Positions 2,736-55,952 of a stretch of DNA of 64,000 nucleotides are shown in pieces. How positions within the stretch are numbered: position 1 is the stretch's first letter; the number at the start of each line of letters is the position of its first letter. The position numbers and the translations under genes were made by a program. The notes below the pieces were generated by a model. The model ran no database searches. It worked only from the letters and a program-made list of their open reading frames with translations, and was not told the DNA's origin. This DNA comes from Erysipelotrichales bacterium (GTDB taxonomy: Bacteria; Bacillota_I; Bacilli_A; Erysipelotrichales; Erysipelotrichaceae): positions 1 to 64,000 of the forward strand of contig CAJTIT010000009.1 of the NCBI GenBank assembly GCA_910576345.1, written 5' to 3'.

Positions 2736-4436
2736 CTAATTACATCGTATACATACGTAAGTAGGTAGTGAAGCCTCAGAAATGGAGTTTTCTGAGGCTT
2801 CAGCTTTTTTTAGCGTTTCTAAAGCCCCCGTAACGCCCTTTGCTACCATAAAGCTCCATTTATGCGGCAGCATCTTCAAATAAACTTCTATGTGGTTTTT
2901 ATCGTTGATTACCATTTTGTCGAGTATCTGGGTATAGTATTCGTCCTCGTACTGGATACCGTTAATCAGCTCGTCAATGGCGTTTTTTATATCCGCCATC
3001 AATTCCTGCTGTTTGAGTATCATTGTCTGTTGTTGCTCAATTCCCTCCACCATAGACTTTAGCTTTTCAATATACTCGTCATACTTGGCTCTTAGGGCAG
3101 TAAACTCGGTTTTGTCTATGTCGCCGCTTGTGTAAAGGTCTATAAGACCTGTACGCTTTTTCTTGGCTTCTTCGATTTTCTCCGATAAGGCACTCGTGCT
3201 TGTTCCTGTTAAGTCTATCCGCATAACAGCGTCAATCGTCTTGGTGAGATTATCGACAACTTTCTGGCGGTTGATTTTCAGTTCCCTGCAAACAAGGTAC
3301 AATAAATAAATCGCATCCTCATTGCGGATACTCTCGCCAGAACAGCCCACTTGATTACCCGCCTTGTCGATGTGCGGTCTGCCGTGGTTTGCCGCTTCAT
3401 AGCAACGCCACGCCTTGTATCTGCTTCCGTCTTTGCGGGTCTTATATCGGGCGACATAGCTTGCTCCGCATCTGCCGCATTTGATTTTCCCAGAGAACGG
3501 ATAGCGGTTGCTGTGTTTTGCCTTACCCTCCTGCGAAAGTGATTTTGCATCCAGAATGCGGTTTGCCTTATCGAAAAGATCACGGGAGATAATCGGCTCG
3601 TGGTGGTCTTTGAGAATGACAAATTCCTCTTGTCCTCGGTTGTATTTCTTTTCGTGAGACAGGAAGTCTGGCGTATAGGTTTTCTTCTGTACTAAATCGC
3701 CGCAGTATTTTTCGTTGCGGATAACACGGAGAATAACCGTATTCTGCCATTCTTTGACACGCATAGGCTCGATGCCTTTCTCCCGAAGCTCACGGGCGAT
3801 AACATGAGTACCTTTTCCTTCGTCCACAAACTTGTGGAAAATAAGGCGGACAATTTTCGCTCCCTCCTCATTGATAGTCATTTTCCCGTCCTTTACATCG
3901 TCGCCGAGCATACTGCGTCCGAACACAACGCCTTGCTCCATCTGGCGTTTCTGCCCCCATTTCACACGCTCGGAAGTCTTGCGGCTTTCCTCCTGTGCTA
4001 TAGAGGACATAATGGCAAGGCGAAGCTCCGCATCGCCGTCCAAGGTGTTGATGTTGTCGTTCAGAAAGATAACGCCGACACCGTGCTTTTTGAGGTCACG
4101 GGTATAGAATATACTATCAAGGGTATTTCTTGCAAAACGGGAAATCTCCTTTGTAATAATCAAATCAAAATCGCCGTTTTTTGCACACTCAATCATGCGG
4201 TTAAATTCTTTTCGCTTTTTCGTGTTCGTTCCAGAAATGCCCTCATCGGCAAATATGGCATAAAGCTCCCAATCGGGATTACGCTCAATATACTGGCGGA
4301 AATATCGCTGTTGGCTTTCAAAAGAATTGGCTTGGTCTTCATTGTCCGTGGAAACACGGCAATAGGCGGCAACTTTCTTTTTCGTTTCCTGCATTTTTCT
4401 CTCTTGGTTTAAGAGTTCGTATTGTAATGTTGGCAT
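2736..4436 (-). CDS. Large serine recombinase (TnpX/TndX-like)
   Basis: Site-specific recombinase likely to excise and integrate island 1. Residues 20-160 form the resolvase catalytic domain, with the nucleophile serine in the A-Y-C-R-V-S-T motif. A recombinase DNA-binding domain follows, then a zinc ribbon (C-G-R-C-G), then a coiled coil. The 566 residues suit the family. AAAGGAGAGG four bases before the ATG supports the start. The last codons lie at the extreme left edge of the island, so the C terminus may overlap the attachment site. The frame is intact. Confidence 0.93.
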   Translation of the reverse strand: MPTLQYELLNQERKMQETKKKVAAYCRVSTDNEDQANSFESQQRYFRQYIERNPDWELYAIFADEGISGTNTKKRKEFNRMIECAKNGDFDLIITKEISRFARNTLDSIFYTRDLKKHGVGVIFLNDNINTLDGDAELRLAIMSSIAQEESRKTSERVKWGQKRQMEQGVVFGRSMLGDDVKDGKMTINEEGAKIVRLIFHKFVDEGKGTHVIARELREKGIEPMRVKEWQNTVILRVIRNEKYCGDLVQKKTYTPDFLSHEKKYNRGQEEFVILKDHHEPIISRDLFDKANRILDAKSLSQEGKAKHSNRYPFSGKIKCGRCGASYVARYKTRKDGSRYKAWRCYEAANHGRPHIDKAGNQVGCSGESIRNEDAIYLLYLVCRELKINRQKVVDNLTKTIDAVMRIDLTGTSTSALSEKIEEAKKKRTGLIDLYTSGDIDKTEFTALRAKYDEYIEKLKSMVEGIEQQQTMILKQQELMADIKNAIDELINGIQYEDEYYTQILDKMVINDKNHIEVYLKMLPHKWSFMVAKGVTGALETLKKAEASENSISEASLPTYVCIRCN

Positions 4437-4919: not shown

Positions 4920-5434
4920 TTGTCTTTCTCCTATCTGAATTTAAGCAGTGTTTTTACTGCTTATGTAGAAGCCGGATATAAGGGAATAAAGCATAAAATA
5001 GAACTCGTTTCCATAGATCCGCTTTACATCTGGCTTAATATGATAGGAGTATTTTTATTTGTACACACTAATGAAGTTAGTGGTGCACTTACGAAAAATT
5101 CATCAAACGGCTGGCAGCGTACCAGCTCCACGGGAATCTCACCCTCACATGGTTCTCATGCGACCGCCCCCATTGCCTGCGACGGCTTCACGACTGAAAT
5201 ATCGCTTTTCACGCTCGGACTGTGGCTGGACGGGAGTATCATTGTCCCTATTGCCTGTCGTCGCCATATCGGGAGCCGCCCGATACTGATAGCCAACTGT
5301 ATCTCGCTCCTTGCCGGATAATTGGTTCGGCATATCGTGGCGCAGCTGCTAATGTGGCTCATGCTTTCGCAATAGCAATAGGAATATGGTATTCAGTTGT
5401 CAAAGAGCGTAATCGTTCACCGTAAAACGGATAA
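4920..5434. other. No supported gene
   Basis: Several overlapping frames on both strands can be read here, but none has a ribosome site, a recognisable family or a plausible neighbour. A short hairpin, GCAGT...ACTGC, lies at 4944-4959. The stretch sits between the sigma-like gene terminator and the small recombinase-side genes and may hold the promoter of the latter. Confidence 0.4.
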
Positions 5435-5972: not shown

Positions 5973-6024
5973 CCTCCGATCAATCTGAATTTTGAAAATC
6001 GAAAAAATTCAGATTGATCGGAGG
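5973..6024 (-). promoter_or_regulatory. 21-bp palindrome covering the ribosome site of the sigma-like gene
   Basis: Arms 5973-5993 and 6004-6024 are perfect complements around a 10-base loop. In the minus transcript the 3' arm ends in GGAGG, the ribosome site eight bases before the ATG at 5964. As RNA the stem would bury the site completely; as DNA it could be an operator. There is no T tract on the transcript side, so it is not a terminator. Confidence 0.7.
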
Positions 6025-6054
6025 AGAACGACAACCTGGGGCAAACACAAAAAC

Positions 6055-6090
6055 GCACTTGAATAACGACAAAAGCCGCTTTACAAGTGC
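6055..6090 (-). terminator. Attenuator-like hairpin in the sigma leader
   Basis: GCACTTG and CAAGTGC close a 22-base loop. On the minus strand the stem is followed by GTTTTTGTGTTT. It lies about 90 bases before the sigma-like start, so it would stop transcription before the gene. Island 2 has a hairpin with T tract in the equivalent place (55,394-55,427). Confidence 0.5.
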
Positions 6091-6260
6091 ATTTAATTCA
6101 TTATTTTTATGGCATAACAGTTCATTGCATAAGCCGCAGTACCCCTGTGTAGGGCATATGCTTTTTTTTAATTGACTACCCGCAAGGATAATATCTATAT
6201 CATAGATTCATATTCGCTGCTTATGACAAGCAGCGAAACGCTGAAAGAAGTCCAGCACAT

Positions 6261-6352
6261 AAAAAATCTCTCCAATCCAAAAACTCGGATTTGGAGGGAT
6301 GAGCGCATAAGGAAACTGCCCTGACAAACCTCGTTTTTTTATTTGGCAGGGC
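6261..6352 (-). ncRNA. Structured leader element, copy 1
   Basis: Two hairpins lie upstream of the sigma-like gene on its strand. Hairpin A pairs 6318-6323 with 6347-6352 and has an AAATAAAAAAACG loop on the minus strand. Hairpin B pairs 6270-6278 with 6287-6296 and is followed by a T6 run and ATGT, like a terminator. Island 2 has the same two-hairpin arrangement at 55,601-55,704, with the same loop and T-run sequences but compensating stem changes. No coding frame fits the segment in both copies. Confidence 0.55.
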
Positions 6353-6468
6353 TGACACCTGTTATTTAGTTCATAGATTTGCGAACTGTCATTCCACTTA
6401 TAATTGAATTGTCGTGCATTATAAACATGGCTCAAATCAGTATAGTTATATATGGAGGTGGACTGTAA

Positions 6469-6576: not shown

Positions 6577-8189
6577 CAATGTCATTAAGATAAAAAGATA
6601 TAAATAAAAGAAGGTAAATCAAAATAAGAATTACCTTCTATTCATTAGGTGAAAGCATTATGAAAACTGTAGTTCAAAACTACAAGAATTTATATTATAA
6701 TAGACATGTTAATCGAATCGATAGTTAAAACAAACAACACCTTTTGGTTTAAGAGGTCGAGTATTACTTCTATTTGGTCGTATAGGTAATATCTCTTTAG
6801 CTATCAGCGATTCAACATTGAGCGGTACTCCGCTCTTTTTTCTTAGAAACGCTCTTATTATATGGAAAGCTCGCGTAAAATTAACTTGATATAGATATCT
6901 TGTACTCTTTTTCTTGATCTTAATCTTTTGAATGATGCGTTGAGAGAAATTATAGAGAAGGATACGGGCGTATATTTCCTGCTTGATCAACTCTCGTTTT
7001 TTACTGTGTAAAGCGCTCAATCCTATGGCATATTTTAATTCTCTAAATGAAGTTTCAATACCCCATCGTTTATGATAGAGTTCCTTGATTTCCTCCATTG
7101 TAAATTCATTTCTGTCAAGATTGGTAATAATACATTCATAAGTATCGTCTGTAATTTTAAACCTTACAATTCTTGTATGAAATTCATAAGGTATATCTTT
7201 GTTTTCGTCAAAGTAATCAAAACGCTGATTCCTAGGCATGTATTTATAAATTTCAGGATGTTTTTTTATTTCATTTGTACATTTTCTTGTAAACAGACGA
7301 GAGACATCAATATCAAATTCATTATTAGGTAATGAACCAAAACTTTTCATAATACTCGTTTTTGAATGTATATCTTTTACACGAATCAAATATTTATTTT
7401 CAGAGTGACTTACATGTTCAACTCCATTGAAGGATTCGTAACCTCTATCCGCAATAAATATAGCTTTATTTCCTTTATATTGATCTACAAGTTGAACAAA
7501 AGCACCGTTTTCATCGAAATTAGCTTGACCTTGAATAACTAAATCATCATAAGTACATTCTAATAAATCATAGGAAGCATTAAGATGAAAAGCTGAAAAA
7601 GTTTTGTCTGAATTATTGATTTTTTGTAGAGTTTTCTTCATCCGCAAATGAATTGTCAATAGGAAGTACTGTACCATCAATCGCTAATAAACGATACCCT
7701 TTCAATGTTTTAGTGACAAGAGATTTTTGATTAAAAGTATCAAAAATAGTTTTGAAAGCATCATGTTTGATTTTACTTCTGGCTTGGACAAAAGCAGAAG
7801 AAGTAGGAGTGAAAGAAGAATAATCATTTAATTTCAATAATTCATCTTTCAATGATCCGGCTTCCATGCATATAACATTTTTAATAACAGTTTCAAAAGA
7901 AAGCTTTCTGTTTCTGGTGAAATCAGATTTAGGATTCACAGAGAAAAGCGATGGTGAATTTGGAACAACAGAAATCACATGATTTAAAATATTACGTAAA
8001 TGTTTAGACTTGTTCATAGATAATACCTCCAAAAATCTATATCTATAAACAATTGGCTAATTATTCATTTAGCAGTAATGAATAATTAGCCACACACCTT
8101 TTAATATATGTCAAGAAAAATATAAAAAAAGAAGGGCCAATTTTTCTTTGACTCCTTCTGTGTCATTTTACCTTAACTTAATGACATTG
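6577..8189 (-). mobile_element. IS4-family insertion sequence, complete copy
   Basis: A 1,613-bp element. Its ends begin CAATGTCATTAAG and are inverted repeats of each other for at least 13 bases, continuing with one mismatch. It is flanked by 10-bp direct repeats GCCGCAAGGC, which fits IS4-family target duplication. It contains one transposase reading region on the minus strand, split by a one-base shift in an A6 tract. Confidence 0.9.
6709..8017 (-). pseudogene. IS4-family DDE transposase, frame-shifted
   Basis: The upstream part runs from the ATG at 8017 (GGAGGT ribosome site) through the first catalytic aspartate motif L-L-A-I-D-G-T. It then hits a stop just after an A6 run (7620-7625 on the plus strand). 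The downstream part continues in another frame from K-I-N-N-S-D through the second motif F-I-A-D-R-G-Y and the Y...R...E motif (H-K-R-W-G-I-E-T-S-F-R-E-L-K). Removing one A restores a single 435-residue frame. Either the gene is dead or slippage on the A run makes the full enzyme. Confidence 0.85.
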
Positions 8190-51301: not shown

Positions 51302-51410
51302 GTTAGCAGAGTAGGAATATGCGCGTCAAGTACAACCTGAACGGGGAGTTGTCAGGATGGCGAAAAACGTTAAGACGTTTGCGATGCATGTTCCGCATCC
51401 CACTGTTGCA
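51302..51410 (+). promoter_or_regulatory. THF riboswitch
   Basis: The segment has the tetrahydrofolate riboswitch landmarks in order: AGAGTAG, GCGCGTCAAGTA (consensus GCGUUAAGUG), a GGGGAGTTGTC arm, GGCGAA, and a closing CCGCATCCCACT. It follows TATAAT at about 51,290 and precedes a folate ECF transporter subunit, the usual partner gene. A weak hairpin with T6 at 51,417-51,447 could be the terminator. Confidence 0.75.
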
Positions 51411-54803: not shown

Positions 54804-55229
54804 TTATAAAATTTTCCGCAGCTTTTTCCGCAGATGGTTTAACCTTGCATAAATAGCCCCCGCTGTCAGTCCAACAAGCGGGGCAATCTCCTTTGTGGAA
54901 TAGCCCTGCATTTTCAGCAGGACGATTTGCAGGGTACGCCTATCCACCGTAAGCAATGCCCGATATAGGGTTTCGTTTTCAATTTCGTCCAGTAAATCGG
55001 CAACGGTCATTACCTCCGCCTGCTTCTCCCTGTCTGCCATTCCCTCAAGGTATTCCCCGAAGTTGCTTGACCAGTGGTAAAACCGCCTGTTGGAATTGAA
55101 GTCTGCCCTGTCGTCTATGCGGATTTGCTCAATGGTGGTTTCATCAACTCCATGTTCCCGCAATATTTTTTCTTCGGCTTCTTTCCAGATACGCCATTTC
55201 CTGTCTTCACGTCCGTTGTTGTATGCCAT
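54804..55229 (-). CDS. Tn916 Orf7-like sigma-70 family regulator
   Basis: 141 residues. The C-terminal 60 residues form a sigma region-4 helix-turn-helix (V-D-R-R-T-L-Q-I-V-L-L-K-M-Q-G-Y-S-T-K-E-I-A). The N-terminal half resembles Orf7-type activators of conjugative transposons. GGAGGAAAAAGGAG precedes the ATG. The leader AATTCAGATTGGAGGAAAAA resembles that of the island 1 regulator. Confidence 0.82.
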   Translation of the reverse strand: MAYNNGREDRKWRIWKEAEEKILREHGVDETTIEQIRIDDRADFNSNRRFYHWSSNFGEYLEGMADREKQAEVMTVADLLDEIENETLYRALLTVDRRTLQIVLLKMQGYSTKEIAPLVGLTAGAIYARLNHLRKKLRKIL

Positions 55230-55256
55230 TCTCCTTTTTCCTCCAATCTGAATTGA

Positions 55257-55272
55257 GCAGGCTTCTGCCTGC
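55257..55272 (-). repeat. Hairpin in the sigma leader, inner
   Basis: GCAGGC-TTCT-GCCTGC, a 6-bp stem 28 bases before the sigma start codon. Confidence 0.55.
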
Positions 55273-55276
55273 GATG

Positions 55277-55300
55277 CTTCTTGACCTAATGGTCAAGAAG
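55277..55300 (-). repeat. Hairpin in the sigma leader, outer
   Basis: CTTCTTGACC and GGTCAAGAAG, a perfect 10-bp stem with a 4-base loop directly upstream of the inner hairpin. No T tract. Confidence 0.6.
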
Positions 55301-55393
55301 ATTGCTGTTTAACTAATGCAGATGGAAAAGGCGGTGAACGGCAGCCAACATCAGAAAAAGCCCTGCGGCGTATTCCGATAAAAATTGACAAAA

Positions 55394-55427
55394 TAAAAAC
55401 CGCAAAGGTACTGTGACCTTTACGGTT
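55394..55427 (-). terminator. Attenuator-like terminator in the sigma leader
   Basis: AACCGTAAAGGT pairs with ACCTTTGCGGTT (one G-U), followed by TTTATTTTG on the minus strand, about 165 bases before the sigma-like gene. It would stop the leader transcript before the gene unless overridden. The equivalent in island 1 is at 6055-6090. Confidence 0.65.
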
Positions 55428-55600
55428 GTAGGAAATGCAGCTTCTACCATTGGGATATTCTATTTCTGTTTTCATGGCGAGAAGCAGCCTTACATATGCA
55501 GGGATTTTTTTAACTGGCTTCCTGCCAGTCCCCGATATGCTATGTATGGATGAACATTGCGTTGTATGGACAAATAAGTAACCGCCCGAAAAAAGAACAT

Positions 55601-55704
55601 AAAAAATCTCCCCAAACTTAAAAACAGCTCTGGGGAGTGTCTGTTAAGTCTTTTCGGGCATAGCAATACCGCCCACCATACGCCGTTTTTTTATTTGGTG
55701 GGCG
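55601..55704 (-). ncRNA. Structured leader element, copy 2
   Basis: Hairpin A pairs CGCCCACCA (55670-55678) with TGGTGGGCG (55696-55704) around a loop with AAATAAAAAAACG (minus strand). Hairpin B pairs CTCCCC (55608-55613) with GGGGAG (55632-55637) and ends in ATTTTTTATGT. Same order, loop and T run as 6261-6352 in island 1, with different stem bases. The rest of 55,301-55,600 holds no gene. Confidence 0.55.
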
Positions 55705-55721
55705 TTTGGCTTAAAACCTTA

Positions 55722-55776
55722 TGAAATAAAATAGAGCCAACGAACTATGATATAAACTCACAAGTTCATCGGCTCT
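55722..55776 (-). terminator. Terminator of the KTR gene
   Basis: AGAGCC...GAAC and GTTC...GGCTCT close a large hairpin with ATTTTATTT following on the minus strand, 5 bases after the KTR stop. Confidence 0.65.
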
Positions 55777-55781
55777 GCGTC

Positions 55782-55952
55782 TTAAGCGTCTGGCTCTTTG
55801 ATGACAGTTACTTGTAACTCTTTTACATTAATCAACGTTTCCTGCTTACATTTCGGACAGTAGAGCGGATAGTTTTTCATAATCGTATCCGATCTAATTC
55901 TGTCACGAGTTTTACTACCGCAGATGGGGCAGCGTATCCATTCTAATTTCAT
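55782..55952 (-). CDS. Cysteine-rich KTR-domain protein
   Basis: 56 residues: M-K-L-E-W-I-R-C-P-I-C-G-S-K-T-R then Y-C-P-K-C-K-Q-E, a four-cysteine zinc ribbon with the K-T-R motif that names the family. Such genes lie next to resistance genes in Tn916-like elements. Its role is unknown. GAGAGGTATTTG precedes the ATG. Confidence 0.88.
   Translation of the reverse strand: MKLEWIRCPICGSKTRDRIRSDTIMKNYPLYCPKCKQETLINVKELQVTVIKEPDA

Follow-up and report, generated by a model that had tools for sequence, protein, structure and literature searches.

The window studied here, a 64,000-nucleotide stretch of a contig from an Erysipelotrichales bacterium, holds two copies of a sequence that a sequence-only reading had taken for a two-hairpin leader, that of a regulatory RNA conserved in mobile elements and not of a coding region. 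This raises two questions. What does the element consist of, and what might it control at the place where it is found?

Both copies are present, at 6254–6354 and 55594–55706, where the limits had been given as 6261–6352 and 55601–55704. The motif quoted for them is real, but its letters are the minus-strand reading, and both copies are located on the minus strand. The 15-nucleotide loop motif CCAAATAAAAAAACG that they were said to share is found in the 2.83 Mb genome at the two window copies and nowhere else. The compensating differences in the stems are likewise confirmed, with GCCCTG/CAGGGC standing against GCCCACC/GGTGGGC. Read along the minus strand, each copy presents a hairpin H1 with an A-rich loop, a spacer with UAUGC, a second hairpin H2, six U, AUG and a further U. 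Both fold better than every dinucleotide shuffle (z of −3.1 and −3.3), and their covariance model scores are 84.6 and 105.4 bits, both being seeds of the model, with the next match in the window at 16.7 bits.

The element has more parts than two hairpins: H1 with an alternative pairing H1′, H2, a leader ORF, a terminator-like hairpin T2 and a hairpin H3 form one unit of ~350–450 nt (Table 1). T2 and H3 are the further attenuator-like stems that had been noticed 3′ of both copies, and the same-strand genes that follow are indeed sigma-70 region-4-like, with PF08281 matches. In copy 1, the 75 nt before the start of the sigma-like gene fold at −36.3 kcal/mol. The 5′ end of the supposed leader is not promoter-proximal; it is a junction with unrelated cargo genes. 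Upstream of copy 1, an apparently interrupted DDE transposase gene (6709–8032, minus strand) takes the place that cargo would normally have. Copy 1 may be an element in decay, with a large serine recombinase (2736–4436, minus strand) nearby. A THF riboswitch is also found in the window, at 51305–51407 on the plus strand (84.8 bits).

Table 1. Positions of the parts of the two copies and of neighbouring features (window coordinates unless a locus is named).
Feature	Position	Strand	Basis
Copy 1 H1, GCCCTGCCAAA-UAAAAAAACGAGG-UUUGUCAGGGC	6318–6352	−	fold and family covariation
Copy 1 alternative pairing H1′, GGGC...GCUC, excludes H1 base	6301–6321	−	family covariation; copy 1 poorly aligned here
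Copy 1 H2, Shine-Dalgarno GGAGAG in 3′ arm	6266–6300	−	fold and covariation
Copy 1 GGAGAG-AUUUUUU-AUG (Shine-Dalgarno, spacer, start codon)	6258–6273	−	spacing and start codon conserved in family
Copy 1 leader ORF MCWTSFSVSLLVISSEYESMI, 21 aa, MCW class	6195–6260	−	frame analysis
Copy 1 T2, terminator-like hairpin, U-rich tail	6043–6091	−	sequence unrelated to copy 2 T2, same place
Copy 1 H3, buries GGAGG ribosome-binding site of sigma-like gene	5973–6024	−	fold
Copy 1 sigma-70 region-4-like gene, 157 aa	5491–5964	−	PF08281, E=2e-11
Cys_rich_KTR protein gene, 56 aa, cargo side of copy 2	55782–55952	−	PF14205, E=3e-32
T0, terminator-like hairpin of KTR gene before copy 2	55724–55777	−	sequence
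Copy 2 H1, GCCCACCAAAUAAAAAAACGGCGUAUGGUGGGC	55671–55703	−	fold and covariation
Copy 2 H1′, GGGC-N11-GCCC	55656–55674	−	family covariation
Copy 2 H2, UCCCC...GGGGA	55608–55638	−	fold and covariation
Copy 2 GGGGAG-AUUUUUU-AUG (Shine-Dalgarno, spacer, start codon)	55598–55613	−	family conservation
Copy 2 leader ORF MFFFRAVTYLSIQRNVHPYIAYRGLAGSQLKKSLHM, 36 aa, MSFF class	55490–55600	−	frame analysis
Copy 2 T2, intrinsic terminator, AACCGUAAAGGU-CACAGU-ACCUUUGCGGUU-UUUAUUUU	55390–55427	−	sequence
Copy 2 H3 region, CCAUCUG ... CAGAUUGGAGG, two short inserted palindromes between arms	55227–55325	−	fold
Copy 2 sigma-70 region-4-like gene, 141 aa	54804–55229	−	PF08281, E=2.4e-6
pemK RNA (RF02913)	5128–5245	−	Rfam
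pemK RNA (RF02913), L218	4802–4902		Rfam
pemK RNA (RF02913), L160	2600–2700		Rfam

A covariance model (R1) built from six diverse copies of the family detects six copies in the 2.83 Mb source genome, and a second model (R2) returned the same six. The wider family, collected by a public pattern scan together with genome searches, comprises 82 distinct sequences whose stems covary. Over these, 93.5% of the cells of H1 and H2 are paired, in alignments which were fitted to the covariance model and therefore lean towards structure. Double changes are seen in 15 of the 20 pairs (8/10 in H1, 7/10 in H2), the covariation score was reached by none of 500 shuffles, and pairing falls to 51–57% when the partners are slid by one column. 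Compensatory changes beyond both the shuffled and the slid controls point to a structured RNA family. With covariation in many more copies and a constant place upstream of sigma-like genes, the earlier view of a regulatory RNA conserved among mobile elements is supported.

Comparison with Rfam gave no family at the element, neither in a scan of the window with Rfam 15 at the gathering score nor in permissive scans up to E=1 (L119, L150, L152, L158 and L160) or up to E=0.1 (L003, L215, L218 and L225). Literature searches found no description of it either. What lies at the junction of cargo and core in these ICE-like elements appears to be a conserved, so far undescribed leader RNA that includes a leader ORF.

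The 3′ arm of H1 can pair instead with a downstream GCCC, ACCC or GCUU, forming H1′ and excluding the base of H1. This helix of only 4 bp is 95.4% paired, with double changes in three of its four pairs, and it is compatible with H2, so that both can coexist. Three related sequences have an A in this arm, which faces C in H1 and so disrupts that stem, but pairs with U in H1′. A base of this kind is the trace to be expected of a switch, although it is seen in one lineage and in a 4-bp helix. Other pairings were considered and rejected. The A-rich loop of H1 (AUAAAAAA) is complementary to the U6AU tail in both window copies, but A-run length shows no covariation with U-run length (r = −0.17) and several copies have an interrupted U-run, which speaks against a loop-tail pseudoknot. 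A hairpin H1″ (GGUA/UGCC) is poorly kept, and the long-range pairing of GCCCGAAAAGA with UCUUUUUUCGGGC in the fold of copy 2 is confined to one class, being mismatched in the L003 group and absent from the LP class.

The arm of H2, GGAGGG (or GGGGAG and similar), reads as a Shine-Dalgarno sequence, and a start codon follows 5–8 nt past it in 40 of the 45 scored copies (ATG in 29, TTG in 11); of the five misses, two are truncated and one, L191, does have an ATG, which the script failed to register. The run of U after the H2 stem is present in most copies and broken in several (TTTCTTATG, ATATTTCATG, TTTTTCATG, TTTTTATTG). Since the start codon stays where the U-run is interrupted, the terminator tail is less well conserved than the ribosome-binding geometry. 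The T6-ATGT end recognized earlier is thus present, but it is more than a terminator tail: a Shine-Dalgarno sequence precedes it, and it supplies the spacer and the start codon. The earlier reading set the element apart from coding regions, but a short ORF begins at the ATGT; because H2 sequesters the ribosome-binding site of this ORF, the element is not purely non-coding.

In 73 of 77 copies the frame set by this start runs for 20 codons or more without a stop; the other two frames do so in 30 and 16. The leader ORFs range from 20 to 42 codons and fall into the classes MSFF (~42 aa), LP (~35 aa) and MCW (~20–26 aa). In the long-ORF classes the distances to a conserved GTTAAAAAAATCC are 59, 62, 65, 80, 83, 86, 89 and 107 nt, all eight in one frame, so that indels keep the frame; L203, L228 and L266, with shortened or shifted ORFs, are exceptions. 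The pN/pS of the leader ORF is 0.63–0.77, not lower than in the other frames, and since it is not frame-specific, the peptide sequence is not constrained and a conserved functional or stalling peptide is not supported. Translation seems to be kept while the peptide is not, as would be expected of a regulatory leader ORF. GTTAAAAAAATCC itself (region e.g. 55490–55528, minus strand) is retained in MCW copies whose leader ORF stops earlier, which suggests a role at the RNA or DNA level.

Beyond the leader ORF, 37 of 46 copies have T2, at a distance of about +140 to +200 that is mostly +140–176, compared with 14 of 230 shuffles; in the MCW class, including window copy 1, an unrelated terminator at the same position replaces it. 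Of the 27 copies listed, nearly all have H3 folded over the Shine-Dalgarno sequence of the sigma-like gene (AAUCUGGAUUUU...AAAAUUCAGAUUGGAGG), and the sigma-like genes behind it belong to different subfamilies. Two palindromes, CTTCTTGACC..GGTCAAGAAG and GCAGGC..GCCTGC, stand between the H3 arms at 55257–55300 of the window, with an equivalent in L212. Sigma70_r4_2 is the commonest domain of the downstream ORFs (26 of 39, some copies giving two ORFs), and for some copies, e.g. L113, L192, L201 and L202, no sigma-like gene is present in the downstream stretch that was read.

On the upstream side, the last cargo genes have no common family; they encode ABC ATPases, ABC-F, histidine kinases, alanine racemase, VanY, BacA, Tet(O), FtsX, DUF4180 and others, and resistance genes are often among the cargo. 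The cargo stop codon lies 15–54 nt before H1 in several copies, in many others a KTR gene with its own terminator-like hairpin T0 precedes H1, and between L003 and L004 homology breaks ~30–40 nt before H1. A scan for sigma-70-type consensus sequences in the two window copies gave no minus-strand promoter-like site between cargo and sigma gene, so the leader is most simply taken to be transcribed by read-through from the cargo.

The element was found in 8 of 195 genomes of its own family, 10 of 315 of the order, 3 of 395 in a sample of the class and 33 of 299 of Muricomes relatives. The genome of Dorea sp. 5-2 (G797) alone has 14 copies, and in the regions that were read their cargo varies. On plasmids of Enterococcus and Salmonella the element adjoins tet(O), and in a Monoglobus plasmid and a phage-like element of Streptococcus suis it adjoins tet(O)-tet(40); Campylobacter pTet carries it as a 5′ half. 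A blastn search with copy 1 as query gave no plasmid or phage match, and the strict form of the exact pattern had zero matches in viral contigs. In L006, L182, L224, L284 and L276 homology ends inside H2 at the same TTACCCTCTGA point, where two different downstream sequences are joined. This point is a possible recombination breakpoint, also in the Campylobacter tet(O) plasmids.

What, then, does the element do? We consider it fairly probable that it combines an attenuator with a translation gate where cargo and core meet in Tn916-like and similar elements, tying the expression of the regulator to read-through from the cargo. Direct support comes from the structures and their covariation, the conservation of start codon and frame, the constant order and the interchangeable cargo; attenuation, switching between H1 and H1′ and coupling to cargo transcription are what we infer from them. 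In such integrative or mobilizable elements it would form the regulatory 5′ boundary of the core module, between the swappable cargo operons and the regulator/excision module. A transcript coming from the cargo would enter H1/H1′ and next H2, whose arm would hide the ribosome-binding site of the leader ORF; after that ORF it would meet the intrinsic terminator T2, and next H3, which would hide the ribosome-binding site of the sigma-like gene. By default, transcription would stop at H2/T2 and the sigma-like gene would be silent. If H1 yielded to H1′, or if the leader ORF were translated differently, e.g. under ribosome-targeting drugs, the polymerase would pass T2 and the regulator would be made, so that regulator expression would follow cargo transcription. 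Against this reading stand the unconstrained leader peptide, the shortness of H1′ and its ability to coexist with H2, the hairpin T0 that precedes H1 where a KTR gene comes first, and the copies with no sigma-like gene in the stretch that was read.

A rival proposal is that of a plain double terminator or insulator, in which H2 and T2 terminate the cargo transcript and keep it from the regulator genes, much as terminator T1 insulates Tn916, with H1/H1′ and the leader ORF playing no switching role. T2 is a strong terminator of conserved position, some copies stand directly 3′ of cargo stop codons, and insulating terminators matter in Tn916 (PMC11658703). Against it stand an H2 that retains the geometry of Shine-Dalgarno sequence and start codon while the U-run is lost, covariation in both H1 and the alternative H1′, a reading frame maintained across indels, and an additional gate on the sigma-like gene in H3; we regard this proposal as unlikely. 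The structured RNA with a conserved loop in front of tandem terminators might instead be a processive antitermination RNA, with H1/H1′ modifying RNA polymerase, like put, EAR or canT, to ignore H2 and T2. The Tn916 family does have a cis-acting antiterminator RNA, canT (PMC11658703), but canT has 452 nt and lies downstream of orf8 rather than upstream of the sigma gene, the Rfam scans gave no resemblance to known antiterminator RNAs, and the arrangement of Shine-Dalgarno sequence and start codon would be left unexplained; such a role is therefore very improbable. Equally improbable is a site acting as DNA, whose inverted repeats would be a hotspot of recombination or cargo exchange, or a protein-binding or single-strand site, with the RNA structure incidental. 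Homology does break beside or inside the element (L003/L004 before H1, the TTACCCTCTGA point in H2) and cargo is swapped exactly at its 5′ side, yet the order H1-H2-ORF-T2-H3-sigma is kept in a fixed orientation with frame and ribosome-binding sites preserved, and U-G pairs, which fit RNA, are common.

Under the preferred reading of an attenuator and translation gate, a bolder and more tentative idea, which we hold to be possible though not the likelier outcome, is that of a plug-in control RNA, by which the regulator, and hence excision and transfer, of many unrelated elements would depend on the transcription of whatever cargo is docked. Any resistance operon placed upstream would then automatically become a transfer signal, irrespective of drug class, because the leader would sense read-through from whichever cargo is present. 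Tn916 is the textbook case of tetracycline exposure promoting spread; if the leader works as proposed, far more elements of gut Clostridia and Erysipelotrichia would share that logic. For annotation, the leader shows exactly where the core module has its 5′ end, which would help to place cargo boundaries, and the covariance model can be used for finding such elements.

How does the element compare with known systems? Like the leader-peptide attenuators of tet(M) and erm, it has a short ORF with its own Shine-Dalgarno sequence and start upstream of the regulated gene, putative alternative hairpins, and a terminator between the leader ORF and that gene. Unlike these leaders, its peptide is not conserved, and its proposed target is a regulator that follows the resistance cargo instead of the resistance gene itself. 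The resemblance thus appears to lie in the proposed mode of action rather than in established membership. In L225, a tet(M)-KTR-HTH-sigma locus, the model detects no copy at this place; the best score of 21.4 bits falls at the terminator of the tet(M) leader. This weak match covers that terminator only, and homology to the tet(M) leader was rejected. L225 carries SQ2397 (RF03532) in the corresponding region instead. From canT, an antiterminator of Tn916 that follows orf8 and acts by orientation-specific antitermination (PMC11658703), the element is set apart by its position upstream of the sigma gene. The pemK RNA of Rfam occurs in the same modules as the element, but it is a different RNA and lies downstream of the sigma-like gene, a position comparable to that of canT in Tn916. 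The regulatory region of Tn916 (tet(M) - orf6 (KTR) - orf9 - orf7/orf8) likewise places a sigma-like regulator after resistance cargo and a KTR gene, and there, as we propose for the element, expression of the regulator and of transfer is linked to transcription through terminators.
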